NCBI RefSeq assembly: GCF_003970695.1
Contig: NZ_CP034570.1
Location: 2,790,001-2,854,000, forward strand
DNA from: Maribacter sp. MJ134
GTDB lineage: Bacteria; Bacteroidota; Bacteroidia; Flavobacteriales; Flavobacteriaceae
Length of the DNA stretch: 64,000 nt
Direction of reading: 5' to 3'
The translations under genes and the position numbers were made by a program. Position 1 is the first letter of the stretch. The number at the start of each line of letters is the position of its first letter. A model generated the notes under the pieces. It saw nothing but the letters and a program-made list of their open reading frames with translations, was not told where the DNA came from and did not search any database. Positions 1 through 13,508 of the stretch are shown piece by piece.

Positions 1-3000
1 TTACTTAAACCGATATCCCAATCCCAGTTGAAATACATTAGAGAAAAAGTCATCAATGGTATAGATTTCATAAGCTGCTCTTATCTGTGTAAACTTTTTG
101 ATTTTATAGGTTAGTTGCCCCATATATCTCTCAAAGTTAGGTTGGTCCCGTTCTGCAAAAAGGCTAATATCCGTAGTAAATTGAAAATTTGTCAAAGGCG
201 AACCAATTGTAAAAAGGATGCCTCCACCGCCCACTAATCTATTATTAGCTATCCAGTAAGGAAATCCGTCCCTTCTATTTAAAGTCCCAAATCCGTAAGA
301 TGTTTCCAACAATGGGGAAATTTTGAATTTTTTCAAATTAAGGAGGGCATACTCAAGCCTCAACAGCCCGGTTGTTTCAAACTCGTCATCCGTATAATAG
401 TTGGATTCCAAGGATATGATATTCTTGAAAGATTTACCCAATGCTATTTCCTTGTATCCATTGAACCTAATTCTATAGATGTCTAAAACATGTCCTGGAC
501 CCGTTCTTACGGGAAAAGCATCCAATTGAAACGATGTAAAATTCAGTTTTTGACTAGTGCTATAACCTATTCCAAACTGATAATACAACTTGTTTTGATT
601 ATCTCTTTCTAATCTTCCTCTTAACCAAGCATTTTTATTTTCTTTTGAATTCATATAATAGCCGTATTCTAAACCTAATAAATCTCTTCCTTCATTATTT
701 GGCCTTATGATAGAATCTGGCGGAATTTTGTACATGGTACTCTGTGTAAGCCCAATTTTATGAAAATTACCCTTTTGATTTCTTAGTTTGAAGTAAACGC
801 TATTCATCAGAGCCGTAGGCCTAAAAGCATCATTTATGTTAAACGTTTCAAAACCAATCTCGTTACCCTGGTTTTCTCTTATTTTCGACACTATTTCCTT
901 TCCAACGTTAGCATCGATCAGTTCTATATATTGTTTATAGAAAGAAGCCTGCTGCCTCAAATCCATTTCCTTTACTTCTCGATTGATAGCTTTTATGATG
1001 TTCTTATCTACTTTGTTCATGGGCATTCCGATAACAATTCTAGCTGCGCCCATAATGTCACTACTGTACAGCATGAGGGTCGCCATATGATTTTTTATCT
1101 TATAATCCCTTGGATTTTCACTTAAGTATTCTTTAAAGACCTTCTTCAACTCTTTTAACTGATTGGTTTCAAAATACCATTCCATCTTTTTTTCAATTGG
1201 CACCTCCGCACCGCATTTAGACCATTCCAAGGCCTTAGAAAAATCACCATAATCAGCAAAATTAACCGCTATCCGAGTTGCTTCATTTTCTAGACCTCTA
1301 AAACATGGGGTAATATTCCTCAATTCCTGATAGGCCTTTCTGGCATCGTTGGCCAATAACAGCCTTATATAATAGGGTAAATCTGTCTCTTTTTTCTCCT
1401 CAAAAGAAGTTGAGCTTAATGTCCAAAAATCAATAGTTTCTTGGTTAATACCCTGAGCGCATTGTGCCCAAAGTAGGGCCTTTTCAAAAACCAATCTGTC
1501 TGCATAGGACCAAGCTATTACATTGGCCAATGCTTTATCATCAAAAGAACAAACCTCTATGGTGTTTAAAAAAGATAAAACCTCTTCTGCTTCACTACCT
1601 ATTAAAAAATTAGCGTAGGCCTTGGTTAAATCAATAGAGGGTTCAATTGCTATAAGTTTTTGAAAAGATTTATTAATGCTATGATAGTTTTCCTCTGTAT
1701 TAAAATTTTGTATGTAATCTTTAAGTATCTCCGCGTTATCCGTATCCCAATAAAGTTCTCGCTCCAACCATTTTTGATGTTCACTTGGTTCAGGGTAGAA
1801 AGTTACATCCAGAACAAGACTGTGAACTTGGGCCGTACTAGCAGACTCAAAACGAGAATAATACCTATCCAATACGGTCCATAGTTCTTTTTCCCTTTCT
1901 TGCCAGACCATATACTGGGCATAGTCTTTGATCATGACTCTGTTTACTTTGGAACTTATTTTAAATTGCTCTTGAATTAAATCTGTTGCGGCACTCAAAT
2001 CACCCTCTGCTACATACCGTTTTATCCTTTCGTCAATAGGCATTAGTAATTTCTTGTTTTTTTCAAATACGGCGCGTTCTGTCATTACCTGCCCTATTCT
2101 GTTATTTTCGTCTTCGAACAGGACGGGTAAACTGGGATTCAAGTCAGGAATCACAAGTTCGGCAGTTCTAGTCTTTATAGAATAGAGGAAGCCGTTCATT
2201 AGCTTTTTCTTTTCGTAGGCTATCTCTTCCCTGTTCAACGTATTATCCATCTGTTGAACATTTTCTCTGCCTACATACATCAACCAAAAACGTTCAGGGG
2301 AACCCTTGCTTTCACTCCTACCCTGAACCTCGTAAAGACCATCATAATTAGAATGTGAATAATAGTTATTACGCCATTCTACGGTAACTTCCGATGCCTC
2401 AGTCGCATTTAGAAACCTAGCATTAGGGTGATTCTTTTTGTAATCCTTAATATGTTCCTTAAACCGATCTAACATTCCTTTCTTTGAGCCAGTGCTATAC
2501 CAGTTTAAATTGTACTTATTACGATATTCAAAATGACCACTTGTTTCAGAGTTGGATTTATCCGGTATTTGATAAACATCGTCTGGATGCACAAAATGCG
2601 TCCATATACCCGTACACATGTACATGGATTCAATTTCCCATTCACTTGTCGTATCCAAAACGTAACCACTACTGATTCTTGGAAAGTTAAAAAAGCGATT
2701 ATTATACGGTTCTGGGTCAAATTCACGCAATCCGCCTTCCTTCAACTCCCCTAAATAAGTACTTTGCACATATCTTAGACTTGGCATTCCCTGATATAAT
2801 TTTGCTAAGCCCACACTATCGATATAATTACTGGGTGGTACATATGATCTAGGAAGGTCTTTAAAGTTTAAGATGTTCCATTTTTTATCAGCAGATTTTA
2901 GGGCCGTGACCATATAGTCGGGATTTGTCCAATCACTAGCTAAAAGTGACACGTGATTGTATCCGTGAAAACCTAATTCATGACCACTCTTTAATATGTC

Positions 3001-4011
3001 TCTCCCGATCCAACCACTAGCACTCTGCTCTAGATTGTTCACAGTAACTTTGTTCCTGTCCCATTCTTTAAATGAGAAAGGTGGAATAACGCCGGCATTG
3101 TAGTCAAAGGTAACATAGGCTGTATATTTCATATTCTCCTCTTTGGCAAGTTTCTTCATATCTGGCCACCATACATTATTCACGTAATCTGTCACTGTTA
3201 TGTTCATTTCGGATTTTATCGGCTCTTTATAGATGGCATAAGTAGGAGAAGGAAAATCATCAAGGAAAATAGTTGCCACATTTGCCACCGGATAGGGAAC
3301 ACCTTCCAGCCCCAACAAAGAACAACTAAAAATAAATCCTCTCATACTTTTGTTCAATTGTTCAAAAGAATTATGTAAAAGGACCTGACCCTTCCCTATT
3401 TTATTTTTGATTAGAACTGGATATTCCTTATCGTTAGCCGCAGCAACCAAAACCTCAATTTTATCGGAGAAATTAGAATTCTGAAATCCTGAATGTAAGC
3501 CCTTGTTTAAATAGGTAAACTTCATCTTTTCAGGAAAAATTGGCTTTTTAAAATAAAAGCCTTCTGCCGTCTTATTGGTCTTCCAATTTGAATTTGTCCC
3601 GAAACCGTAGAAAAAAGCGAGACGCTCGTCATTAATAGGTTTAGTAAAAAATATGCTTCCGCCCTTTGCAACAAATGCCAATAATGAATCGATAGCGGCA
3701 TCCTTGAGTCCAAACGTCTGGTTGATGACTAATAGTCGTGCGGTCGGGGCCAAGGTTACATCTTCGTTAAATTGCTTAACGGGAATATAGTTGTAGGGTA
3801 TTTTGGTGTATTCAAAGGCCTTTCCTAAATTTTCTCGCTCCATCATAGCCTCATAATCCCCCGATTCTTGTATGAATTGAACTAACGGTGATTCTGAACT
3901 TTTTGCAGGGATATTAAACCGACTATTGAATCGATACAAATCACTCTGACATCCAATATTCAGACTTAGAATCGAGATTGCAACTAAAATTATTTTAACA
4001 CTTTTTATCAT
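1..4011 (-). CDS. PelA-type deacetylase / TPR / outer-membrane barrel fusion lipoprotein
   Basis: 1336 residues. Seen: a lipoprotein signal (LNIGC, Cys21); a glutamine-amidotransferase-like alpha/beta region (about 60-235); a polysaccharide-deacetylase region (about 240-560) with the metal motifs DD at 251-252, HGYNH (H349, H353) and a late THFVH at 471-475; an alpha-helical, TPR-like part (about 655-1045); and about 280 C-terminal residues rich in alternating aromatic beta strands ending in GLGYRFK, typical of an outer-membrane barrel. Known: in Pseudomonas, PelA carries hydrolase, amidotransferase-like and deacetylase domains, and PelB carries TPRs plus an export barrel. Inferred: this chain combines PelA (without its hydrolase) with PelB, deacetylating and exporting the polymer. 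It overlaps the upstream gene by 4 bp (ATGA), last visible gene of the operon; its stop is at the window edge, so more genes may follow outside. The deacetylase call is firm, the barrel call likely. Confidence 0.8.
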   Translation of the reverse strand: MIKSVKIILVAISILSLNIGCQSDLYRFNSRFNIPAKSSESPLVQFIQESGDYEAMMERENLGKAFEYTKIPYNYIPVKQFNEDVTLAPTARLLVINQTFGLKDAAIDSLLAFVAKGGSIFFTKPINDERLAFFYGFGTNSNWKTNKTAEGFYFKKPIFPEKMKFTYLNKGLHSGFQNSNFSDKIEVLVAAANDKEYPVLIKNKIGKGQVLLHNSFEQLNKSMRGFIFSCSLLGLEGVPYPVANVATIFLDDFPSPTYAIYKEPIKSEMNITVTDYVNNVWWPDMKKLAKEENMKYTAYVTFDYNAGVIPPFSFKEWDRNKVTVNNLEQSASGWIGRDILKSGHELGFHGYNHVSLLASDWTNPDYMVTALKSADKKWNILNFKDLPRSYVPPSNYIDSVGLAKLYQGMPSLRYVQSTYLGELKEGGLREFDPEPYNNRFFNFPRISSGYVLDTTSEWEIESMYMCTGIWTHFVHPDDVYQIPDKSNSETSGHFEYRNKYNLNWYSTGSKKGMLDRFKEHIKDYKKNHPNARFLNATEASEVTVEWRNNYYSHSNYDGLYEVQGRSESKGSPERFWLMYVGRENVQQMDNTLNREEIAYEKKKLMNGFLYSIKTRTAELVIPDLNPSLPVLFEDENNRIGQVMTERAVFEKNKKLLMPIDERIKRYVAEGDLSAATDLIQEQFKISSKVNRVMIKDYAQYMVWQEREKELWTVLDRYYSRFESASTAQVHSLVLDVTFYPEPSEHQKWLERELYWDTDNAEILKDYIQNFNTEENYHSINKSFQKLIAIEPSIDLTKAYANFLIGSEAEEVLSFLNTIEVCSFDDKALANVIAWSYADRLVFEKALLWAQCAQGINQETIDFWTLSSTSFEEKKETDLPYYIRLLLANDARKAYQELRNITPCFRGLENEATRIAVNFADYGDFSKALEWSKCGAEVPIEKKMEWYFETNQLKELKKVFKEYLSENPRDYKIKNHMATLMLYSSDIMGAARIVIGMPMNKVDKNIIKAINREVKEMDLRQQASFYKQYIELIDANVGKEIVSKIRENQGNEIGFETFNINDAFRPTALMNSVYFKLRNQKGNFHKIGLTQSTMYKIPPDSIIRPNNEGRDLLGLEYGYYMNSKENKNAWLRGRLERDNQNKLYYQFGIGYSTSQKLNFTSFQLDAFPVRTGPGHVLDIYRIRFNGYKEIALGKSFKNIISLESNYYTDDEFETTGLLRLEYALLNLKKFKISPLLETSYGFGTLNRRDGFPYWIANNRLVGGGGILFTIGSPLTNFQFTTDISLFAERDQPNFERYMGQLTYKIKKFTQIRAAYEIYTIDDFFSNVFQLGLGYRFK

Positions 4012-5987
4012 AGATTGAATATTAGCTCATCTAATCTTGATGAGTTTTTTTGGTTTACGATTTCGTAAACCGTTAAATATTGATTAGTATAGAAAATGTC
4101 TATTTTTCTACCTCTACTTCTTAGAACCTTGAGTGTTCTTAAAATGTTACTTTTTATTTCTGCCGATGTGGCCAATGAACTTAGGTTCTCTTTGTCCTCG
4201 TTTTCAGAAACAAAAACAAAAACACTGTTGGGTAGAATATACTGGGAGTTCTCTCTTAACAATTTGTCATTCTCCTTTATGTTGTGGTATATGGAATCTC
4301 TTTCTATATAGGTCTTCAGAAAATTTTCATACTGAATAAAATGGTGTTTACTTTTGCTGATCGTAAAACCATAATTGTCGTTCACAACCATATAAGAGTA
4401 GGGTAAATAGTCATTGGACAATTTATTATAAACCAGTAATACATCACTTTTAAGTTTGTCTTTTTGGTTCTCATCAGATTTAAGGAAGCTGTTTGAAGTA
4501 TAAGCCATGTAAACAAGCATCAAGAATAGGAAACTATAGACAGGAGCCCTAAGGAGTTGGTTTTTAGGAATTGTCATTTTCAAATAATGCATTACCACCC
4601 CAAAAAAGATACCGATGGGCATGGCAATCAATGCGGCAATAGTTTGATAATATAGATCAACATCTATCCAATCCCACCTTAACCATTTAAGGGAAACGAC
4701 TATATTAAAAAATATGATGATTATTAGTGCAGGGGTCCATTTTGCTTTTTCTTTAAGATAAATAGGCAAGAGACATAACAGTACGATTACTCCAAAAATA
4801 GCGTAATAGCTCATAAGCTTTTCTATACCCATTTCTATCTGGGGAAAATAGGTGTACGCATCTACTAAAATAAGGTTCTCCTTAAAAAAACTATAAAAGG
4901 AAACATCGTTTACGTAACAGGCTATTCCATGCAAACCTATCACAAGGGTTCCCGCCAAAATATAAACCCAAATGCTTCTCAGTACGAACATTCTTCGTTT
5001 TTTTGTTTGAAACATAAGTGCTGTCAATAAAAAAAGGGGTATTACGATAATGGCGACGAAAAGATTTACGAAAAACAGTGCACTGTACGCCACCATTAAT
5101 TGTGTCATGAACTTTTTTGCTTTAATAGTCAGTAGTCCTGGTAAAAGTGTGTATATCATAATTGGTAAGGCAATCCAAAAAGCCATATTTATAGGATTAT
5201 GCTCTAACAATAAGTTGGTGTTAATTGGCAAGTATTTGAATACAAAACCATAAAATAGTACTGAAAACATGGGTGCTAAGAAATCGGATTTACTAATTTT
5301 AGAGATTATCCAGTACAGCACTATACTGAGACCAAACACTTCTAACAGTCCAAAAGAGTGCACAGCCATTTCTTCACTTATCCCAGTAACTTTTGAATAT
5401 AAATTGATAACAGCGTCTTCACCTAATAATCTAAATCCACTGGTAAACCATTGGTTATAGTTAAATTGTTTGACAAACTCCAAGTTTGTTTGCCATAAAT
5501 CGGATAGAGTATATAAATCACTTTCAAGAAATAAATATCTGGATACAAAACAAACAGCGGCAACTAGAAAAGCAGTGATAAGTTTTAAACTGATATGTTG
5601 TGGAACATATAACCTTTTTAAACTTGTGTAAATATCCCCAAACCTGGGGCGTTCTTCAATGAACTTGAAGAACTTTAATAGGAATTTTACTTTTTTACGT
5701 TTAAATGACTTACCGCTAAAAGCATAATTCTTTAATCCGAAATATTGGGAAACTAGTATAATTACTAGAATAGCCAATACCGAAAAAGTGTCATATAAAT
5801 CCAACTGAACCAGGATAAATACCAAAATCAACAAACTACTGCCATAAAAAGTTATCCTTTTTAAAATATAGTCCAAACCATAATTGCGTAAGGGCTGTCT
5901 TGTTATTATTTGATGAAAGAACAAAACCCCTGCAAACAAAAAGAGAACCCTAAGTGGGCCAACTAAAACATAATCCATGAGTATCAT
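4008..5987 (-). CDS. Polytopic inner-membrane protein of the Pel-type operon
   Basis: 659 residues with about 13 hydrophobic segments over the first 500 residues and a soluble C-terminal tail of about 155 residues. No catalytic motif was recognised. The layout (many membrane spans, then a soluble domain) recalls GT-C-fold membrane glycosyltransferases, but this is only a resemblance. Its start overlaps the stop of the GH114-like gene by 4 bp and its stop overlaps the start of the deacetylase-barrel fusion by 4 bp, so it is translated with them. In Pseudomonas, the inner-membrane PelD and PelE occupy this part of the system; neither is seen here, so this protein may take their place as the membrane scaffold. 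That role is inference from position only. A second ATG lies three codons in (5978). Confidence 0.7.
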   Translation of the reverse strand: MILMDYVLVGPLRVLFLFAGVLFFHQIITRQPLRNYGLDYILKRITFYGSSLLILVFILVQLDLYDTFSVLAILVIILVSQYFGLKNYAFSGKSFKRKKVKFLLKFFKFIEERPRFGDIYTSLKRLYVPQHISLKLITAFLVAAVCFVSRYLFLESDLYTLSDLWQTNLEFVKQFNYNQWFTSGFRLLGEDAVINLYSKVTGISEEMAVHSFGLLEVFGLSIVLYWIISKISKSDFLAPMFSVLFYGFVFKYLPINTNLLLEHNPINMAFWIALPIMIYTLLPGLLTIKAKKFMTQLMVAYSALFFVNLFVAIIVIPLFLLTALMFQTKKRRMFVLRSIWVYILAGTLVIGLHGIACYVNDVSFYSFFKENLILVDAYTYFPQIEMGIEKLMSYYAIFGVIVLLCLLPIYLKEKAKWTPALIIIIFFNIVVSLKWLRWDWIDVDLYYQTIAALIAMPIGIFFGVVMHYLKMTIPKNQLLRAPVYSFLFLMLVYMAYTSNSFLKSDENQKDKLKSDVLLVYNKLSNDYLPYSYMVVNDNYGFTISKSKHHFIQYENFLKTYIERDSIYHNIKENDKLLRENSQYILPNSVFVFVSENEDKENLSSLATSAEIKSNILRTLKVLRSRGRKIDIFYTNQYLTVYEIVNQKNSSRLDELIFNL

Positions 5988-6805
5988 TTATTCAGCATTA
6001 AAAATTGAGATGGATGTTGAAGGTCTATCTGAGCAATGTAGTATGGCAATTTGTACGTAATCAACTCTTTTGTAACCTCTTCCATTATTTTAAAATTGTC
6101 GCTATATTCCAAAATATAAATAGGCTTATCCTTTGACTTTCTTTGGTTTAGAATTTCTTGCAACATGCGATTCTTAGATGTTTCATCTCTCAAAAGATAT
6201 TCTTGTTTTTGAAAATCATAGTTGGTTACCAAAGATTCTAAAACTATGGCATCAGTAAGGCTCGATAGCTGAGCATCAAGAAAAAGACCTGAATTCTGGC
6301 AGAGATAAAATTGTGGATACTTCCTTTTGATGGTCTGTAAAAGCTCTACTAACTCATTCTCCATTCCGTTAAGTGCGCCCCAACTAGAAACATTGTCAAG
6401 GTTATCCAAGAACAGTCCATCAAAGCCGTGATTTTCGAGTTTACCGATTCGACTGAGCAAAACCTTCTTAGCTCTTTCATCAGATATATTAACGAACCTA
6501 CTTCCCCAATTGGTGTTTTCACCAATGCAATATGACTTTAATTTATTAAAAAGTGGACTGTTCTCATTGACCTCCGTAAGACTGATATATGCTATCACTT
6601 TTTCATTATTTTTCTTAAAAATTCTAATATCTTCATCATTAAAATGACCTGCCTCCAGCACTACAAGTTTGTAACCTACAATACTGTTCGGGTCTATTTT
6701 TCCATAACAGACAAACAACGATTTTTCGTTTGAACCTTGTAAATGTGCTCCTTTTGAGAAACACAAGAAGGGCCATATGACTAAGAGTATATTAATAAGA
6801 CGCAT
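5984..6805 (-). CDS. Secreted GH114-like endo-alpha-1,4-polygalactosaminidase
   Basis: 273 residues. An N-terminal signal peptide (about 1-19) is followed by a TIM-barrel of the GH114/TM1410 type: an early strand KLVVLEAGHF, a middle strand VIAYISLTEVN, the acidic motif DGLFLDNLDN (129-138, with D134), and VLES with E190 on a later strand. Family members cut alpha-1,4-linked galactosamine polymers, and the hydrolase domain of Pseudomonas PelA is related. Here the hydrolase is a separate gene, placed just before the PelA-type deacetylase fusion and overlapping both neighbours (14 bp with pelG, 4 bp with the membrane protein). It probably trims or clears polymer in the periplasm. Confidence 0.78.
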   Translation of the reverse strand: MRLINILLVIWPFLCFSKGAHLQGSNEKSLFVCYGKIDPNSIVGYKLVVLEAGHFNDEDIRIFKKNNEKVIAYISLTEVNENSPLFNKLKSYCIGENTNWGSRFVNISDERAKKVLLSRIGKLENHGFDGLFLDNLDNVSSWGALNGMENELVELLQTIKRKYPQFYLCQNSGLFLDAQLSSLTDAIVLESLVTNYDFQKQEYLLRDETSKNRMLQEILNQRKSKDKPIYILEYSDNFKIMEEVTKELITYKLPYYIAQIDLQHPSQFLMLNK

Positions 6806-8396
6806 AATAATGGTAATCCAATTTTTTAAAGTAGGACATCGTGTGCTTACTTGTTAAAATCATAAAAACGAATGCTCCGATCAGCATACCTACGGAACTG
6901 TACTCATAACTTAAAACTCTACTAGAAAAGAATCCGATCGTAAAGTTGATTACGCAGGCAATCGTAATTGCTTTCAAAGCTCCCTGTGGTTTATTAAGAA
7001 GAAATAAGTATAAAGAATTGAGCATACCCCAAGTCATGAACAGGTATCCGAACCCTCCAATGATACAGACCCTTATACTTATGGGGTCAAGTGCTTCGCC
7101 AAAATTTGCTTGGTAACCCCATGATTTCGTCACAAAGAAATAAATGAAAAGAGTAGATAAAAAAGCAGTCCCCAATAAAAGTGTAATATGTCCTTTATAC
7201 ATGGTATGCATGCGCATATTAAACGACTTTATATATATTAATGATGTACTCTTTTGTCTTATATCCAAAAACTTACTGAATGAAGCGATGGAATATTCCA
7301 AAACACCGGATAACAAGAAGAAAATAATGATGGCGAGATCCATGCCTATTTCATAATTTTTTTCATAAAGAAATAAGTAGTTATGTGTGAGTGTAGCGTC
7401 TGCGGACCATGCCAATAGTCTATCCAAAAAGATAAATAGATAAACCAGAATACCATAAAAGAAGTAGTGATAATTCCTATAAATCACGGTAACCGTTCTT
7501 GGTTTTATAGCGTCTGTACCATTTAATCCGATTTTCTTCTTAAAGAATAATAACAAATAAACCCTGCAAAGGACAATCGCCAAGCCAATCCCGATCCAAT
7601 GCGTAATGTAGATATGAATAGAGGTGGTTAAACTCAAGGTAAGTGCCAATACTGTAGAAATAAGTATAACCAATGAGTTGAACCAACGTTGTTTTATAGA
7701 ATGGAAAGGAGCCATAACCAATAATAATAAGCCTATTAGGAAGGCGTATATCATTGTTATGAGGACAAATGAAAATGGATAAAAATTAAAGAACATATTA
7801 ATCACTAGCAGTGCTGCGAAAGAAACCAGCAATCCTTTGATTCCTGAGAACGTCATTTTATCTATGACCACTTTAGCCTTGTAGTATTCTTGATGATGCC
7901 AATAAAAGGATGACTGCCTTCCGAGAACTTGAATGTAACCGCCAGAAATCGTAAGGCCAAGAATTACCCCAAATACAACTGATGTTGATTGTACAATATT
8001 AAATCCCAAATAGGTCCAGAGGGAATACCCAAAAAAAACGATAGTAATAATCTGTATAAATACGGGCATTAAATGAAATAGACCTAAGGGGTAATACTTT
8101 GTAAAGAGCTTTGATTTGATCCATAAATAATCGGAAACGGGAATACTTCTGGACTTTTTTTCCCTTCTCATTTCTGGCTCATTCTTCAAATCCTTAGGGT
8201 TTCTACTTTTTAAATCTAAAAAAATATGTTGCGCGAGCTCATTTATAGAGGGAAATCCATAATCTGATAACACGTCACTATCCCTAATGCCGAAGGATTC
8301 CAGAGTTGCTAATACCACCCTATCGTTTACCGGGTTACCCACCTTAAGGACAACTGCGTTCGTTGTGTCCGCTACTACTTTATTGTAATCTATCAT
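6792..8396 (-). CDS. pelG: PelG-like exopolysaccharide transporter
   Basis: 534 residues, with about 12 membrane segments starting near residue 110. The pattern, the partner PelF next door and segments such as FIFLDRLLAWS and YEIGMDLA fit PelG, the MOP/Wzx-type inner-membrane transporter that works with PelF to move the nascent polymer across the inner membrane. Pseudomonas PelG is about 456 residues; the extra length is an N-terminal cytoplasmic extension of about 100 residues with a DSDVLSDYGFPS stretch and a charged linker, whose role is unknown. It begins 10 bp after pelF and overlaps the GH114-like gene by 14 bp, so translation is coupled. Confidence 0.85.
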   Translation of the reverse strand: MIDYNKVVADTTNAVVLKVGNPVNDRVVLATLESFGIRDSDVLSDYGFPSINELAQHIFLDLKSRNPKDLKNEPEMRREKKSRSIPVSDYLWIKSKLFTKYYPLGLFHLMPVFIQIITIVFFGYSLWTYLGFNIVQSTSVVFGVILGLTISGGYIQVLGRQSSFYWHHQEYYKAKVVIDKMTFSGIKGLLVSFAALLVINMFFNFYPFSFVLITMIYAFLIGLLLLVMAPFHSIKQRWFNSLVILISTVLALTLSLTTSIHIYITHWIGIGLAIVLCRVYLLLFFKKKIGLNGTDAIKPRTVTVIYRNYHYFFYGILVYLFIFLDRLLAWSADATLTHNYLFLYEKNYEIGMDLAIIIFFLLSGVLEYSIASFSKFLDIRQKSTSLIYIKSFNMRMHTMYKGHITLLLGTAFLSTLFIYFFVTKSWGYQANFGEALDPISIRVCIIGGFGYLFMTWGMLNSLYLFLLNKPQGALKAITIACVINFTIGFFSSRVLSYEYSSVGMLIGAFVFMILTSKHTMSYFKKLDYHYYASY

Positions 8397-8406
8397 TTCG
8401 CAAATA

Positions 8407-9948
8407 CTATTGAGGAACGGCTATTTCTACGCTCGTTTCTTTTGTCTCTTTCAGCTTTACATCTTTATTGCCCAAACCCTTATATATATCTTTAAAAGCA
8501 GTCGTAAAACTATTTATAGTGAAGTTTGAAATCACTCTTTTTCTTGCACTATCTCCCATTTCCCTCCTTAAATCAGGATCATTCAGAAGTGTTATTACTT
8601 TATCGGCAATGTCTTGATAGTCTTTTGGCTTACATATAAACCCGCATGTTTCATCCAGAGCTTCTGAAACTCCACCCACGTCCGTTGAAACTACAGGAAT
8701 ACCACAGCTCATAGATTCAATTACCGTATAAGGAAATCCTTCAGAAATTGAGGTTAGAATAGACACATCTCCCTCGGAGTATAGTTTACTTGGATTATGA
8801 TGAAATCCTTTAAGGTGAAAATGCTCCTTTAAATTAAGTGATACAATCAATTCTTCACAGGCAAGCGTATACTCCGGAACGGCATCTTTATTACCATAGA
8901 CTAAAAACTGCACATTTGGTATTGATTTTCTTACTTCATGACAGACACGAATCATGGTAATAATATCTTTCAAATCAAATATTCTAGCAGCGGCTACTAC
9001 CGTAGGTATATTTAGTAAAGGTTCCGGTTTTGGTAGTGGCTTAAATCTAGTATGATCTACCCCATTATATACGACGTTTATTTTAGCGGCATTGGCACCA
9101 TAAAAGGTTTCCCACGATAGGTTGAACTTACTTACCGTTGTAATCTTAGTAGCGTGATAGTAAACTAGTTTTGTAATACACTCAGAAAAATTTATAAGCA
9201 TTTTTTTTAAAAAATACGGATACTCTGCCGAACTTATCGCAATCAATCTTTCTCTAATGAATACACCGTGTTCCGTAACCAATATGGGTGTATTATATTT
9301 ATATTTAAGGGCCAACGCGGGCAACACTGCGATACCGGAAATTGTGATATGAGCAATGTCCACCTTTGGAACTTTGATTGCCATGGGTATCAAAAAACGG
9401 TAAATCCAACGCATAGCGGTGGTGGTGTCTTCAAGTGTTATGTCTTCCAATTCTTCTTTGGGGATGACGGAAATCAGGGCCTCTTTAAAGCTATTCCAGA
9501 CAACGGCACTGCTCATCGTCTTTTTGTAGTCGTATTTTTGAAAAAACTGCCACATCCTATGGAAACATTGTTCTATGACCTCAATGGACTTTTCCGTAGC
9601 GTATATCTCTTCTATAAAAGTCTTGAAACTTTGTGAAAACGAACTAGCGATTGCCGATTCTGTGGTTAACTCTCTTTTCTGGAGTATTTTTGAATACTTT
9701 ATACCGTAGTCCAAACAGTCAAATGGCTCCTCTGAAGACCACATGGGAACCTGTATGACCTTTTTTATTCGATCTCCAAGATGGTATTTGGTTGAGCGCT
9801 CTACGTTTGCATTTATAGAATAAACGGTAAAGTCCACATCTTCTATTCGAGTACAAAGATCGTTGGCCCAGGTTGATACGCCTCCTGTGTTATAGGGGAA
9901 TGTACCCTCACAAATCAGCAGAACCTCAATGTTCTTAGAATGATTCAT
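8407..9948 (-). CDS. pelF: PelF-like cytosolic glycosyltransferase (GT4)
   Basis: 513 residues from the ATG at 9948; an in-frame upstream start at 9987 would add 13 residues but the family begins at the IEVLLICEGTFPYNTGG strand. The two-domain GT-B fold is seen: an N-terminal Rossmann domain with the glycine-rich YNTGGVSTW loop, and a C-terminal nucleotide-sugar domain with the E-x7-E motif EGFPYTVIE followed by MSCGIPVV. Length and the long insert in the first domain match PelF, the polymerase that builds Pel from UDP-activated N-acetylhexosamines. It is followed by pelG after 10 bp. The 147 bp upstream separate it from a GH114-like lipoprotein gene on the same strand and may hold a second promoter. 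Confidence 0.9.
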   Translation of the reverse strand: MNHSKNIEVLLICEGTFPYNTGGVSTWANDLCTRIEDVDFTVYSINANVERSTKYHLGDRIKKVIQVPMWSSEEPFDCLDYGIKYSKILQKRELTTESAIASSFSQSFKTFIEEIYATEKSIEVIEQCFHRMWQFFQKYDYKKTMSSAVVWNSFKEALISVIPKEELEDITLEDTTTAMRWIYRFLIPMAIKVPKVDIAHITISGIAVLPALALKYKYNTPILVTEHGVFIRERLIAISSAEYPYFLKKMLINFSECITKLVYYHATKITTVSKFNLSWETFYGANAAKINVVYNGVDHTRFKPLPKPEPLLNIPTVVAAARIFDLKDIITMIRVCHEVRKSIPNVQFLVYGNKDAVPEYTLACEELIVSLNLKEHFHLKGFHHNPSKLYSEGDVSILTSISEGFPYTVIESMSCGIPVVSTDVGGVSEALDETCGFICKPKDYQDIADKVITLLNDPDLRREMGDSARKRVISNFTINSFTTAFKDIYKGLGNKDVKLKETKETSVEIAVPQ

Positions 9949-10095
9949 TAAATAGTTATAGTTAGTATGTAACCACAAAGAAATCACTCTTAACGGGAAT
10001 GTTAATTTTATTTTGTTAAACGTAAGCGTTTTATCTATGAACTACGATGTAGAATACCATAATCGATAAAATGCACTTTTAATAGAAAGGAGAAT

Positions 10096-11118
10096 CTATT
10101 CATTTTCGAAATATTCAAAGGCGTCTATGATATCCAAGTATACTCCGTCGAAGCCAGTTGCTACAATTCGATCAAGATAGGAGTCTGTATTACCGTAAAT
10201 GATATTTTGCCAATCCTTTTCCCAGTATTTTACCTTAAAATTACCTGGCCAATTTTTGTTTTCCTTATCCAGCCACTCAGGTTGTTCTTGTTTCCAGCTT
10301 GGATTCCAGTAAAATCTGTAATCCTCTGCTTCCCCAATGGACATGTAGGCCAGTACTAATCTTTTAGAGCCATTAGCTTTTATTTTTAGACGTTCAATCA
10401 TGCTTTTGGAGTAGGGCGTGCCGTCATTAAAAAACATATCAATGAAAACAATGTCATAATCAGAATCCGAAATGGCGCTTACAACCGATTGTTTAGTGGG
10501 GTAATTTTCGTAATTCAGGAAGAATAAAAAATTATTGGCATCGTTTAAATTGATAATGTCTTTACCACTTAGTTTGTCTGTGGTCTGATTTAGTTCAGGA
10601 ATTATAGTCAAATCCCGGTCTGGAGCAGCAAATGAAACAAAATCATAAGATGAATTTTTGTGTTTGGAATCTTTAACTTTTTCCAAATCAGAACAATAAT
10701 CCGTTACAAAAATCATGTTATCTTGTTTCTGGGAAATTTCCAGATAAGAAATTAATGTTTTACTAACGGACTGATTTGTTTTAACGTTATCTTTTTTGTA
10801 CCCATAAAATAAACTCTCCTGACCGTTACCATCTATTAGTGCCAAGTAATCCTTACTGATTTTACCGTCCGGTTCTCCGTTCATAGTAACCAGTTCGATG
10901 CCATTCTGTGGAATAATTTTAAAATCAGGATTAACCTCTTTAGCATGTTTTCCAAGCCCGATCACAAAATCTCTCATCTCTTGTCTATAATCGATTCCGT
11001 TATTTGCCTGATTCACGGATTGGTCCGTTTCTTCGCCAAAAACTTCAGAAAGTTCCTGATTGTTATTACATCCTAAAACAAGTAACAACAATAAACAATT
11101 CATTTTTAGTAAACCCAT
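10096..11118 (-). CDS. GH114/TM1410-like lipoprotein
   Basis: 340 residues. Lipoprotein signal with lipobox LVLGC (Cys17); an alternative ATG lies five codons in (11103). The C-terminal two thirds show strong GH114/TM1410 features: DIVFIDMFF, the MSIGEAEDYR loop (259-268), the WNPSW and YWEKDWQ tryptophan-rich segments, and GFDGVYLDIIDAFEYF near the C terminus. It is closer to the TM1410 consensus than the second hydrolase of this operon (5984-6805). Residues about 20-200 form a more divergent, possibly degenerate first half. As the first gene of the Pel-type cluster it is probably a surface or periplasmic polygalactosaminidase acting on the same polymer. Two hydrolases of one family in one locus is unusual. 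Confidence 0.78.
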   Translation of the reverse strand: MGLLKMNCLLLLLVLGCNNNQELSEVFGEETDQSVNQANNGIDYRQEMRDFVIGLGKHAKEVNPDFKIIPQNGIELVTMNGEPDGKISKDYLALIDGNGQESLFYGYKKDNVKTNQSVSKTLISYLEISQKQDNMIFVTDYCSDLEKVKDSKHKNSSYDFVSFAAPDRDLTIIPELNQTTDKLSGKDIINLNDANNFLFFLNYENYPTKQSVVSAISDSDYDIVFIDMFFNDGTPYSKSMIERLKIKANGSKRLVLAYMSIGEAEDYRFYWNPSWKQEQPEWLDKENKNWPGNFKVKYWEKDWQNIIYGNTDSYLDRIVATGFDGVYLDIIDAFEYFENE

Positions 11119-11253
11119 TTGTTCTTCTATATTACGCTAAGGTAAAGTAATTCCTCAAAATCTTCAATATACATTTTTCATTCTGAGTGATGTCTAACAC
11201 TATTACCACGTTCGAATAGCCCCTCGGTCTAATTGTAAATAGATCTCTTGTCC

Positions 11254-11278
11254 TTAAAACTAAACATCCTAGTTTTAA
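11254..11278. promoter_or_regulatory. Inverted repeat upstream of the Pel-type operon
   Basis: Perfect 9-bp arms TTAAAACTA / TAGTTTTAA with a 7-bp spacer. It lies 136 bp upstream of the first pel-cluster gene and 91 bp beyond the stop of the NTF2-like gene. No T run follows on the minus strand, so an operator is more likely than a terminator. The binding protein is unknown. Confidence 0.4.
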
Positions 11279-11368
11279 ACGTAGATTAAAAAAGTATTTT
11301 TAAAGAACTGTGCCTAATATGACTTGCATTTAAAGATAAGGATGGGGTGCTCCTATAAGTATCCCCCC

Positions 11369-11878
11369 CTAAAATTCTAAGGGCTCTTGTTTTTGGAAAT
11401 CTTCCTGGGAGATGTTATTACCATTAATATGTGCAGTATCCCAATCTTGGGTAATTTTCCAATGCCCATCAATCTTTTTAATGACTATATGAAACTGTCC
11501 GTAATTATAGCTAGGTTCTTTTCCCGTATAGGTGGTTCCTATTCTGTAAAAACCAACTTCATATGACGTTGTTTCATTGGTGTGTCTGCTATCAAACCAA
11601 AAATCTAGCGTTATACTGGCTCCATCCTCCCTGTTTTTATCAAAACGTTTTATATTGGCAGACTTAAAACTATTATTGGTATCTATTCCATTTGGTGTAA
11701 CCCGCAATACCTCTTTCGCATAAGTTCTGTTTAAAGCTTCACCATCCAAAGATTCAAAAGCCGTTTGAAAAGGTCTCCAAACGCTGGTATCTATTTCTCT
11801 CTGAATATTCAAGACTTCGATTTGTGCACCCACAGTGGCGGATGAAAGCATAATCGCCATGGCTATAATATATCTCAT
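11369..11878 (-). CDS. Secreted NTF2-like (SnoaL/DUF4440-type) protein
   Basis: 169 residues. Signal peptide (about 1-18, ending VGAQ). The rest has the cone-shaped NTF2-like pattern: a helix with VWRPFQTAFESLDGEALNRTY, then strands ending in FHIVIKKIDGHWKITQDW, the usual last strand of DUF4440-like domains. Such proteins bind small ligands or are enzymes of varied function; the substrate cannot be told. It follows the ZIP transporter by 21 bp on the same strand and so may be the last gene of the repressor-transporter operon. It could be a periplasmic accessory of metal handling, but no metal motif is evident. Confidence 0.7.
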   Translation of the reverse strand: MRYIIAMAIMLSSATVGAQIEVLNIQREIDTSVWRPFQTAFESLDGEALNRTYAKEVLRVTPNGIDTNNSFKSANIKRFDKNREDGASITLDFWFDSRHTNETTSYEVGFYRIGTTYTGKEPSYNYGQFHIVIKKIDGHWKITQDWDTAHINGNNISQEDFQKQEPLEF

Positions 11879-11899
11879 AAAATTTATTTTAAATAAGTA

Positions 11900-12721
11900 T
11901 TATCCTAATCCCACATCTAAGGTCATCATCACTATAAATCCTCCAATAAAGCCTAACACGGCCACATCGGAATGTTTATCTTGCTGTGTTTCGGGAATTA
12001 CTTCTTCCACTACCACGAAAATCATCGCTCCTGCAGCGAACGAAAGTGCATATGGTAATATAGGTTGAAAGGTCAATACTGCCCAGGCACCTATAACCGC
12101 TGCTATTGGTTCTACTATAGCGGAAGCTTGACCGTACATAAAGCTTCTCCTTCTGGTCAATCCTTGTCGGCGCAAAGGCATCGCAACTGCAAAACCTTCT
12201 GGGAAATTCTGAAGACCAATACCCAATGCCAAAGCCACGGCACCACCTATACTTGCTCCGTCAAAGCCGGCCGCTACCCCACCAAAGAGAACCCCTACCG
12301 CCAAACCCTCCGGAATATTATGTAAGGTAATAGCAAGTGTCAATAGGGTGGTTCTGTGCCACGGTGTCTTAACACCCTCTGCTTCACTTTCTTTAAAGTT
12401 CAAATGCAAGTGGGGTAATACTTTGTCCAATCCAAACAAGAATAATGCTCCAAGGGCAAAGCCAACAGCAGCCGGTATTACTTTTATAAACCCTTCACCA
12501 GGGCTCATTTCAATTCCCGGAGCCAAAAGACTCCAGAAACTAGCGGCTACCATGACACCTCCTGTAAAACCCAGCATACCATCCATGACAGCTCTATTGG
12601 GATTTTTGAATAAAAAAACCAGGCTGGCACCAAGAGCGGTCAATCCCCACGTAAAAAGGGTTGCATAGAATGCCGCCAAAATTGGGTTGATAGATTCAAA
12701 ATAGTTAATTACCTGTTCCAT
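11900..12721 (-). CDS. ZIP-family (GufA-like) divalent metal transporter
   Basis: 273 residues with eight hydrophobic segments. The two ZIP metal-site motifs are present: HNIPEG at 134-139 and QNFPEG at 171-176, plus a VVVEEVIPE segment with E239-E240. A histidine/acid-rich loop (HLHLNFKESEAEG) lies before the fourth segment. ZIP proteins import zinc, manganese or iron into the cytoplasm. The gene follows a DtxR-family repressor by only 11 bp, which suggests the repressor controls the transporter in response to the metal carried. Manganese or iron is more likely than zinc because of the DtxR partner; this is inference. Confidence 0.88.
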   Translation of the reverse strand: MEQVINYFESINPILAAFYATLFTWGLTALGASLVFLFKNPNRAVMDGMLGFTGGVMVAASFWSLLAPGIEMSPGEGFIKVIPAAVGFALGALFLFGLDKVLPHLHLNFKESEAEGVKTPWHRTTLLTLAITLHNIPEGLAVGVLFGGVAAGFDGASIGGAVALALGIGLQNFPEGFAVAMPLRRQGLTRRRSFMYGQASAIVEPIAAVIGAWAVLTFQPILPYALSFAAGAMIFVVVEEVIPETQQDKHSDVAVLGFIGGFIVMMTLDVGLG

Positions 12722-12732
12722 AAAATCTTGCG

Positions 12733-13407
12733 CTAATTTTTATTCAACTCTTGTTCCACTATCTCTAAAAATAGATTGGAGGCAATTTGAGCGGAAATAC
12801 GTAGTTTTTGTTCAGAAGTTTCTAATTGTACCGACCCATCGAATTCCTCTTTGTCCAATATTTTCAGGGTATCGCCCAGAGCAATCTTATTTTTATCCAA
12901 AAATTTTAAAAAGGCCGCTGAAGAGTCGTTTACACCAACACAGATGCCCTTACTGCCAATAGGAAGTTCACTTATCAGCTTTTTTACCGATTTGGTAAAC
13001 CTTCCGTCCTTCGAGGGAATAGGATCTCCGTGGGGGTCAACTTTTGGGCTTCCCAAATAGCCTTCCAATTTATCAATGAGCTGTTCACTTTTTATATGTT
13101 CTAGCTGCTCCGCTACCTCATGTACCTCATCCCAGGCAAAATCTAGTTTTTCTACTAAGAAGACTTCCCACAAACGATGTTTCCTAATAATGGACAATGC
13201 TGATAACCGTCCTCGTTCGGTTAAGGATACGCCTTTATATTTTTTATAGAAAATAAGGTCTTTATCAGATAGCTTTTTGATCATATCTGTTACCGAAGAA
13301 GGTTTGGTATCCATTTGCTTGGCTATTGCGTTAGTAGAAATCGCAATTTGCTCGCCTTTACTAAGGTGATAAATTCCTTTGATATAGTCTTCCTCAGAGA
13401 GTGTCAT
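12733..13407 (-). CDS. DtxR/MntR-family metal-dependent repressor
   Basis: 224 residues. N-terminal winged helix (about 1-62: EEDYIKGIYHLS, TNAIAKQMDTKPSSVTDMIKKL), then the dimerisation and metal-binding domain (EVHEVAEQLEHI and the family signature DPHGDPIP), then a C-terminal SH3/FeoA-like domain (about 145-224). The last domain makes it of the longer DtxR/IdeR-like type. With bound metal it would repress the downstream ZIP gene and perhaps the divergent TonB receptor. A TTTAG-N6-CTAAA inverted repeat lies in the 101-bp divergent promoter region. Confidence 0.88.
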   Translation of the reverse strand: MTLSEEDYIKGIYHLSKGEQIAISTNAIAKQMDTKPSSVTDMIKKLSDKDLIFYKKYKGVSLTERGRLSALSIIRKHRLWEVFLVEKLDFAWDEVHEVAEQLEHIKSEQLIDKLEGYLGSPKVDPHGDPIPSKDGRFTKSVKKLISELPIGSKGICVGVNDSSAAFLKFLDKNKIALGDTLKILDKEEFDGSVQLETSEQKLRISAQIASNLFLEIVEQELNKN

Positions 13408-13458
13408 TCACAAATTAAAATATATGCTAAAATACATTTTTATATATAAAAACAAATT

Positions 13459-13474
13459 TTTAGTTTTGTCTAAA
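13459..13474. promoter_or_regulatory. Putative DtxR-family operator
   Basis: Inverted repeat TTTAG-TTTTGT-CTAAA in the divergent region between the DtxR-type repressor (minus) and the TonB receptor (plus). The half-site resembles the TTAG core of known DtxR/MntR boxes. Binding is inferred from position and symmetry. Confidence 0.4.
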
Positions 13475-13508
13475 TTAATATTTTGATTTATTTAAATATT
13501 ATTCAAGG

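Follow-up and report, generated by a model that had tools for sequence, protein, structure and literature searches.

Pel Systems and the Maribacter Locus

Among the described systems that resemble the locus reported here, the pelABCDEFG operon of Pseudomonas aeruginosa encodes a PelA whose deacetylase domain belongs to CE21, and a PelB that is an interaction partner of PelA and increases its esterase activity (PMC12022489). The pelDEADAFG operon of Bacillus cereus includes PelD and PelE together with a stand-alone deacetylase (PMC7112168); this protein, PelADA (PDB entry 9ZAU), is the founding member of both CE26 and CBM114 (PMC13254593). Fission of pelB and rearrangement of pelA have been reported in other clades (Bundalovic-Torma et al., PMC7112194), and in Fusobacterium nucleatum the DUF2194, pelF and pelG genes are downregulated in coculture (PMC9848294). 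Here, we describe an operon of Maribacter sp. MJ134 (Flavobacteriaceae, Bacteroidota) that lies within positions 1-11118 of a 64,000-nucleotide stretch of contig NZ_CP034570.1 (2,790,001 to 2,854,000; the window), consists, with an associated gene counted in, of six minus-strand open reading frames, and is best read from its sequence as a Pel-like system. No Bacteroidota Pel operon is described in the available text of PMC7112194, PMC7112168, PMC12022489, PMC13254593, PMC12054363, PMC8305213, PMC9012183, PMC9848294 or PMC10485009, and the titles and abstracts among the matches listed in searches of open-access literature described no such operon, no fusion of DUF2194 to an exporter and no permuted GH114/GH191 protein.

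The Maribacter operon resembles that of P. aeruginosa in having PelF, a PelG-like transporter, a PelA-type hydrolase, a deacetylase and a repeat-and-barrel outer-membrane exporter. It differs in that the deacetylase is of the CE26 rather than the CE21 kind and sits on the exporter rather than on the hydrolase, in the presence of an additional protein with a predicted GT-C-like fold, and in a genome where no GGDEF domain was found. PelD was not found; neither the operon nor the left flank showed a PelC, and the operon showed no PelE, with no profile search made for either and no genome-wide search for PelE. A CE26/DUF2194 deacetylase is shared with B. cereus and with the pel locus of Cetobacterium somerae (Fusobacteriota), but in both it stands alone; the Cetobacterium locus also encodes a GAF protein (about four transmembrane helices) and a 292-residue protein (about two), which by position would be PelD and PelE. 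We consider it probable that the Maribacter genes form an exopolysaccharide operon of the synthase-dependent kind, representing a Pel type that this analysis has so far encountered in Bacteroidota, in which modification is coupled to export.

A Deacetylase Fused to a Predicted Exporter

One gene of the operon encodes a 1336-residue fusion protein (positions 1..4011, minus strand), composed of a CE26/DUF2194 deacetylase (about residues 1-560), a helical-repeat solenoid and a predicted 16-strand outer-membrane barrel. Its N-terminal ~560 residues match DUF2194 with 232 bits, and in a single-sequence search of the PDB with the whole fusion the sole match at E<=1 was 9zau (4.5e-37). A profile of the deacetylase matched the same entry at 1.2e-71 and superposed the DD, HGYNH, R(ITSG) and HFVH motifs, of which DD and HxxxH are kept in all 32 aligned fusions, that of the window included. 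The solved PelA structure 9cgy is not among the four PDB matches of the profile at E<=0.1. Because of the match to 9zau and the aligned motifs, we assign the deacetylase by sequence to CE26, that is, to the Gram-positive PelADA kind and not to the CE21 kind of Pseudomonas PelA. This assignment does not support a Pseudomonas PelA that was split and whose deacetylase half moved to the exporter, and we reject that reading.

The exporter half (residues 560-1336) was modeled from 26 sequences with a predicted local distance difference test score (pLDDT) of 88 and a predicted template modeling score (pTM) of 0.52. A small beta domain and a long helical solenoid make up the model together with a barrel of 16 strands by manual count. 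Its top five PDB matches are three BcsC structures (9b8a, 9b8h, 6tzk), 4y25 ('polysaccharide outer membrane secretin', which we take to be PgaA) and PelBC (9h80), the template modeling score (TM-score) against 4y25 being 0.72 by target length. The solenoid and 16-strand barrel are common to BcsC, PgaA-type and PelB exporters, whereas the deacetylase on the same chain is particular to the present protein. By its fold only, the C-terminal half is a putative PelB-like polysaccharide exporter. A preliminary description of this DNA had already proposed a deacetylase joined to a PelB-like exporter, a reading that the DUF2194 and 9zau matches of one half and the BcsC, 4y25 and PelBC fold matches of the other sustain. 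The fusion also fits the published interaction between PelB and PelA (PMC12022489), two separate proteins in Pseudomonas; deacetylase and pore on one chain would argue that Pel-type modification and export are one step. A simple lipobox pattern is found in 85 of 105 fusions. In one contig (L122), the fusion gene occupies two reading frames of 813 and 452 residues.

The Core Genes and Their Order

The gene pelF (8407..9948, minus strand, like all genes below) encodes a GT4 glycosyltransferase and predicted polymer synthase. The longest open reading frame extends to 9987, but the ATG at 9948 is the likelier start. The protein scores 208 bits against PF11997 (cut-off 23.3) and 173 bits against the PelF family of NCBIfam, NF038011 (cut-off 100), so that its earlier recognition as pelF stands above two curated cut-offs. 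In a tree of 22 PelF rows, the 13 from Bacteroidota group (100/99) with those of Thermus, Deinococcus and Streptomyces, while Azonexus, Cereibacter and Cetobacterium fall outside this group; several branches are long and the placement is unsure. In their deacetylases these nearest relatives differ from the Maribacter operon: Deinococcus and Thermus have an Agd3-like deacetylase, of which Streptomyces gives a weak hint.

The adjoining gene (6792..8396) encodes a multi-pass transporter that is PelG-like but extended by about 100 residues at its N terminus; of 11 aligned proteins, that of the window being one of the 11, six match PF16933 (best E 1.4e-13). The first ~60 residues are common to a Streptomyces PelG-like protein (3.6e-06), with only a hint in Deinococcus (0.02) and Thermus (0.056). 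A second, partial PelG-like gene lies upstream of the permuted hydrolase described below in genome G424 (L063:15063-16016), where that hydrolase is itself present in two copies.

The stand-alone hydrolase (5984..6805) is of the PelA type (GH166-like). Its best PDB matches are the PelA structures 9cgy (2.4e-12) and 5tcb (4.5e-12), ahead of TM1410, and its D134 and E190 are kept in all 105 sequences (~95 distinct). The preliminary description had spoken of a split PelA; a PelA-like hydrolase on its own is indeed present, but the deacetylase, being CE26 and not CE21, is not the other half of PelA.

Counted from pelF on, the junctions between the five genes measure +10, -14, -4 and -4 bp. Overlaps had been thought to bind all five; in fact three junctions overlap (pelG/hydrolase by 14 bp, hydrolase/membrane protein by 4 bp, membrane protein/fusion by 4 bp), while pelF and pelG are 10 bp apart. 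The fusion gene ends at position 1 exactly, with its stop codon within the stretch.

Conservation was followed in a phylum sample of 296 genomes, in a family sample of 397 genomes, in 32 regions chosen for holding the membrane protein (that of G100 left out) and in the best 80 of 441 genome-contig stretches encoding DUF2194; at least 10 genomes are in both of the latter sets. The order pelF, pelG, hydrolase, membrane protein, fusion recurs in 32/32 regions, with one additional gene inserted in regions labelled f23 and f12, a fusion that runs off the stretch in L072, and broken pelG and hydrolase frames in L044. It recurs likewise in 70 of the 80 contigs, a count that includes two fusions and one pelF cut at contig ends as well as the two-frame fusion of L122; in the other 10 the contig ends with the gene set still incomplete. 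The operon is therefore real and conserved, its order recurring beyond chance. A search for the membrane protein found it in 23 of the 296 phylum genomes, in one of them (G137) as a fragment with stops. PelF is likewise encoded by 23 genomes of this sample, of which 22 are among those 23 and the last, G243, has the membrane protein by profile (4.9e-52); within the family sample the membrane protein occurs in 18 of 397 genomes, three of them with short fragments containing stops. Judged from these sequences, Pel-type biosynthesis would extend to a large phylum, the Bacteroidota, with a design common to related bacteria. Flavobacteriaceae-like operon copies also appear in two contigs from metagenome bins, labelled Bifidobacterium breve (L119) and Sphingobacterium thalpophilum (L113); both are likely mislabelled or misbinned.

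A Circularly Permuted Galactosaminidase Upstream

An associated gene (10096..11118) precedes pelF by 147 bp if the start at 9948 is used. Its 340-residue product, by eye a lipoprotein, aligns to TM1410 in two blocks of swapped order: TM1410 16-152 is matched by residues 199-339, and TM1410 163-251 by residues 46-144. A profile of the family shows the same half swap against a TM1410-type protein of Cereibacter and against one of Thermus. The sequence alignment identifies the lipoprotein as a circularly permuted GH191/TM1410-type galactosaminidase in which the second barrel half comes first, an identity that the preliminary description overlooked. Both barrel halves and the catalytic D/E are shared with GH191, while the order of the halves differs. 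The putative catalytic pair of TmGH191 is D156/E225 (PMC12054363); these residues map by alignment to D329 and E101, both kept in 36/36 sequences (~30 distinct). A truncated pseudogene is ruled out for the 340-residue protein, the missing half being N-terminal and the layout being kept across those same sequences. The main text of PMC12054363 contains no occurrence of 'permut'. The protein would be a naturally circularly permuted (beta/alpha)8 glycosidase that retains both catalytic residues.

The permuted form, counted where a single match starts no later than residue 46 and runs to approximately the end, is present in 20 of the 296 phylum genomes: 19 of the 23 with PelF and one of the 273 without it (G045), a co-occurrence with a Fisher value of 4e-25, uncorrected for relatedness. 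A further PelF-less genome (G037) matches one half of the protein only. The gene was also found in eight of 12 further Flavobacteriaceae operon genomes and adjoins the operon in 25 of the 80 best contigs; in f23 genomes it lies away from the operon. Several genomes count against the link: G011, G016, G243 and G274 have PelF but no permuted gene, and the Flavobacteriaceae operon genomes G608 (~360 contigs), G478, G644 and G487 (68% complete) lack it as well. Since a simple lipobox pattern is found in only 13 of 36 permuted hydrolases, we apply the term lipoprotein to the gene of the window only; by eye, several of the others have the cysteine and some only an ordinary signal peptide.

The same permuted form heads the pel locus of C. 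somerae (L163:5193-6092), with a near full-length profile match (1e-70). In that locus, a 305-residue protein encoded after pelG (L163:13519-14436) gives a weak match (E 0.0015) to the part of the fusion profile that covers the exporter.

The Polytopic Membrane Protein

The remaining core gene (4008..5987) encodes a 659-residue polytopic membrane protein that ends in a soluble domain. A Pfam scan of the window's protein gave no match, and among 19 relatives a single one touched DUF6541 (4.3e-6). The protein is matched by none of six Cetobacterium proteins and none of eight Thermus, Deinococcus and Streptomyces proteins tested, nor was a match found among plasmids. A structure model of moderate quality, built from 19 sequences (pLDDT 73.5, pTM 0.70), gave 13 PDB matches with E<=0.001, of which 11 are oligosaccharyltransferase complexes or translocons holding one, the matched subunit presumably being STT3, and two are DPY19; ALG9, AftD and ArnT followed with weaker E-values. 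These proteins have the GT-C fold in common, and enzymes of this fold carry a catalytic acid in the first periplasmic loop. We predict from the model a GT-C-like fold, that of glycosyltransferases using lipid-linked sugars. The protein had been noted as unfamiliar and polytopic; it is polytopic and lacks a Pfam match, but the predicted fold had gone unrecognized. All 108 sequences (~98 distinct) have D442, and an acidic residue occupies position 444 in 105 of them.

Cyclic di-GMP and Regulation

The PelD profile (PF16963) matched none of the 296 phylum genomes and nothing in the whole source genome; its sole positive control is an Azonexus plasmid, and 14 built-in controls gave no match. No GGDEF domain was found in the source genome, in any of 15 Flavobacteriaceae operon genomes (one 68% complete), or in 32 of the 35 genomes that have either the whole operon or its core, the three positive genomes falling as 2/21 and 1/14. 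These results agree with the earlier remark that the locus offers no obvious receptor for cyclic di-GMP (c-di-GMP). The ~9 kb left flank, in which the preliminary description proposed to look for further genes, likewise contains no recognizable pel gene: its frames of at least 90 residues, named by eye, comprise an S9 peptidase, small proteins and a FeoB-like transporter, none resembling PelB, PelD or PelE. A Pel-type machine would be available in genomes without a detected GGDEF domain.

Each of the 18 f23/f12 regions carries an HD-domain gene that separates pelG from the hydrolase (three by Pfam, the rest by similarity; for example L030:6387-7943) and a response-regulator gene upstream (Pfam for one), while the HD gene was found in 0/80 best contigs, Roseivirga (L152, another family) included. 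Among 19 HD proteins, all keep the HD motif, three have HQ in place of HH, none has the lysine that follows HDxG, and that of G243 alone has an intact GYP triad. The gene is retained in f23 genomes without a detected GGDEF domain, its motif partly altered. In G243, two genes (L153:13962-17538) adjoin the core of pelF, pelG and membrane protein, one for a phosphatase that by eye resembles SpoIIE and one for an HD protein.

Proposed Mechanism and Alternative Readings

We infer for these genes a polymer, a set of activities, a role for the GT-C-like protein and a coupling of modification to export that could fit together as follows. PelF would polymerize an amino sugar in the cytosol, N-acetylgalactosamine by analogy, and PelG would pass the chain across the inner membrane; beside PelG, the GT-C-like protein may serve as a membrane scaffold in place of PelD and PelE, or as a periplasmic glycosyltransferase. 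The CE26 domain would de-N-acetylate the chain on its entry to the repeat-and-barrel pore of the same polypeptide, and with deacetylase and pore on one polypeptide, we propose that modification and export are physically coupled. In the periplasm, the PelA-type hydrolase may trim the chain, and the permuted GH191 lipoprotein may act as a second hydrolase for release or turnover of the polymer. Control in Flavobacteriaceae would be by means other than c-di-GMP.

Several observations weigh against this reading, which rests on sequences and models. The window's PelG scores 25.5 bits against PF16933 over 111-531, under the 29-bit cut-off. With hhalign, no match was obtained between the deacetylase profile and PelA, the repeat-barrel profile and PelB, PelG and its counterpart, or the membrane-protein profile and PelD or PelE, each target being a single Azonexus sequence and hence insensitive. 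The negative comparison with one PelB is why the identity of the exporter rests on fold and context, and, taken by query length, its TM-scores reach only 0.29-0.32 across the five best matches. Those of the GT-C matches are also low (0.26-0.39, with root mean square deviations of 12.5-18 A), so that the membrane protein is named only 'GT-C-like'; the loop expected to hold the GT-C acid has no invariant one, position 157 being Asp in 90 and Asn in 16 of 108 sequences. A 33rd region (L153, genome G243) holds the core in another order (hydrolase, second glycosyltransferase, pelF, pelG, membrane protein, phosphatase-like gene, HD gene) and without the fusion in its 19 kb stretch. Two genomes of the same genus lack the membrane protein, and the operon is therefore patchy.

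The GT-C-like protein could be a non-enzymatic scaffold that recruits soluble PelF to PelG and replaces PelD and PelE, an alternative we place somewhat short of an even chance. It would account for a membrane protein coextensive with PelF in a phylum sample where PelD was not found, and agrees with the first extracellular loop lacking an invariant acid; the invariant D442, the acidic position 444 and the conserved C-terminal domain nevertheless look enzyme-like, and comparison with one PelD and one PelE sequence showed no relationship. Descent of the membrane protein from either of these was itself set aside, hhalign giving no signal against one sequence of each.

Somewhat more doubtful, in our view, is a product other than Pel, namely a decorated amino-sugar heteropolysaccharide whose backbone is made by PelF and PelG and to which the GT-C-like protein adds side sugars in the periplasm from a lipid-linked donor. 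The fold itself, on which all 13 of the better PDB matches agree, speaks for such a product, as do the presence of the membrane protein in every PelF-positive phylum genome and a second PelF-like glycosyltransferase in f23, f12 and f30 relatives; yet no invariant acid stands at the usual GT-C place, and both hydrolases and the deacetylase indicate galactosamine polymers. An ordinary Pel operon with canonical pelB, pelD and pelE elsewhere in the genome is very improbable, for although split loci are known from other polysaccharide systems, the PelD profile is silent genome-wide yet matches the Azonexus plasmid, no GGDEF domain was found in the genome and the left flank has no recognizable pel gene.

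We retain the Pel-type reading. The suggestion of the preliminary description that the locus would form a distinct Pel branch is supported, the branch being one of the Bacteroidota. More tentatively, and with less than even confidence, one might see in it a new Bacteroidota class of machine, combining a PelF/PelG core, a periplasmic GT-C that completes the polymer, a self-deacetylating pore, freedom from c-di-GMP control and a dedicated permuted galactosaminidase in common with a Fusobacteriota pel locus.

Flanking Features

On the minus strand over 1-13500, a Bacteroidota-type promoter pattern gave no match, and sigma-70-like sites and terminators occur at chance level only. Near the permuted hydrolase, positions 11900-13407 encode by eye a ZIP-type metal transporter and a DtxR/MntR-like regulator; comparable neighbors of 273 and of 216-226 residues occur in L026, L027 and L061-L065. 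As zinc is bound by PelADA, the relative of the deacetylase (PMC13254593), a metal link to these neighbors is conceivable.

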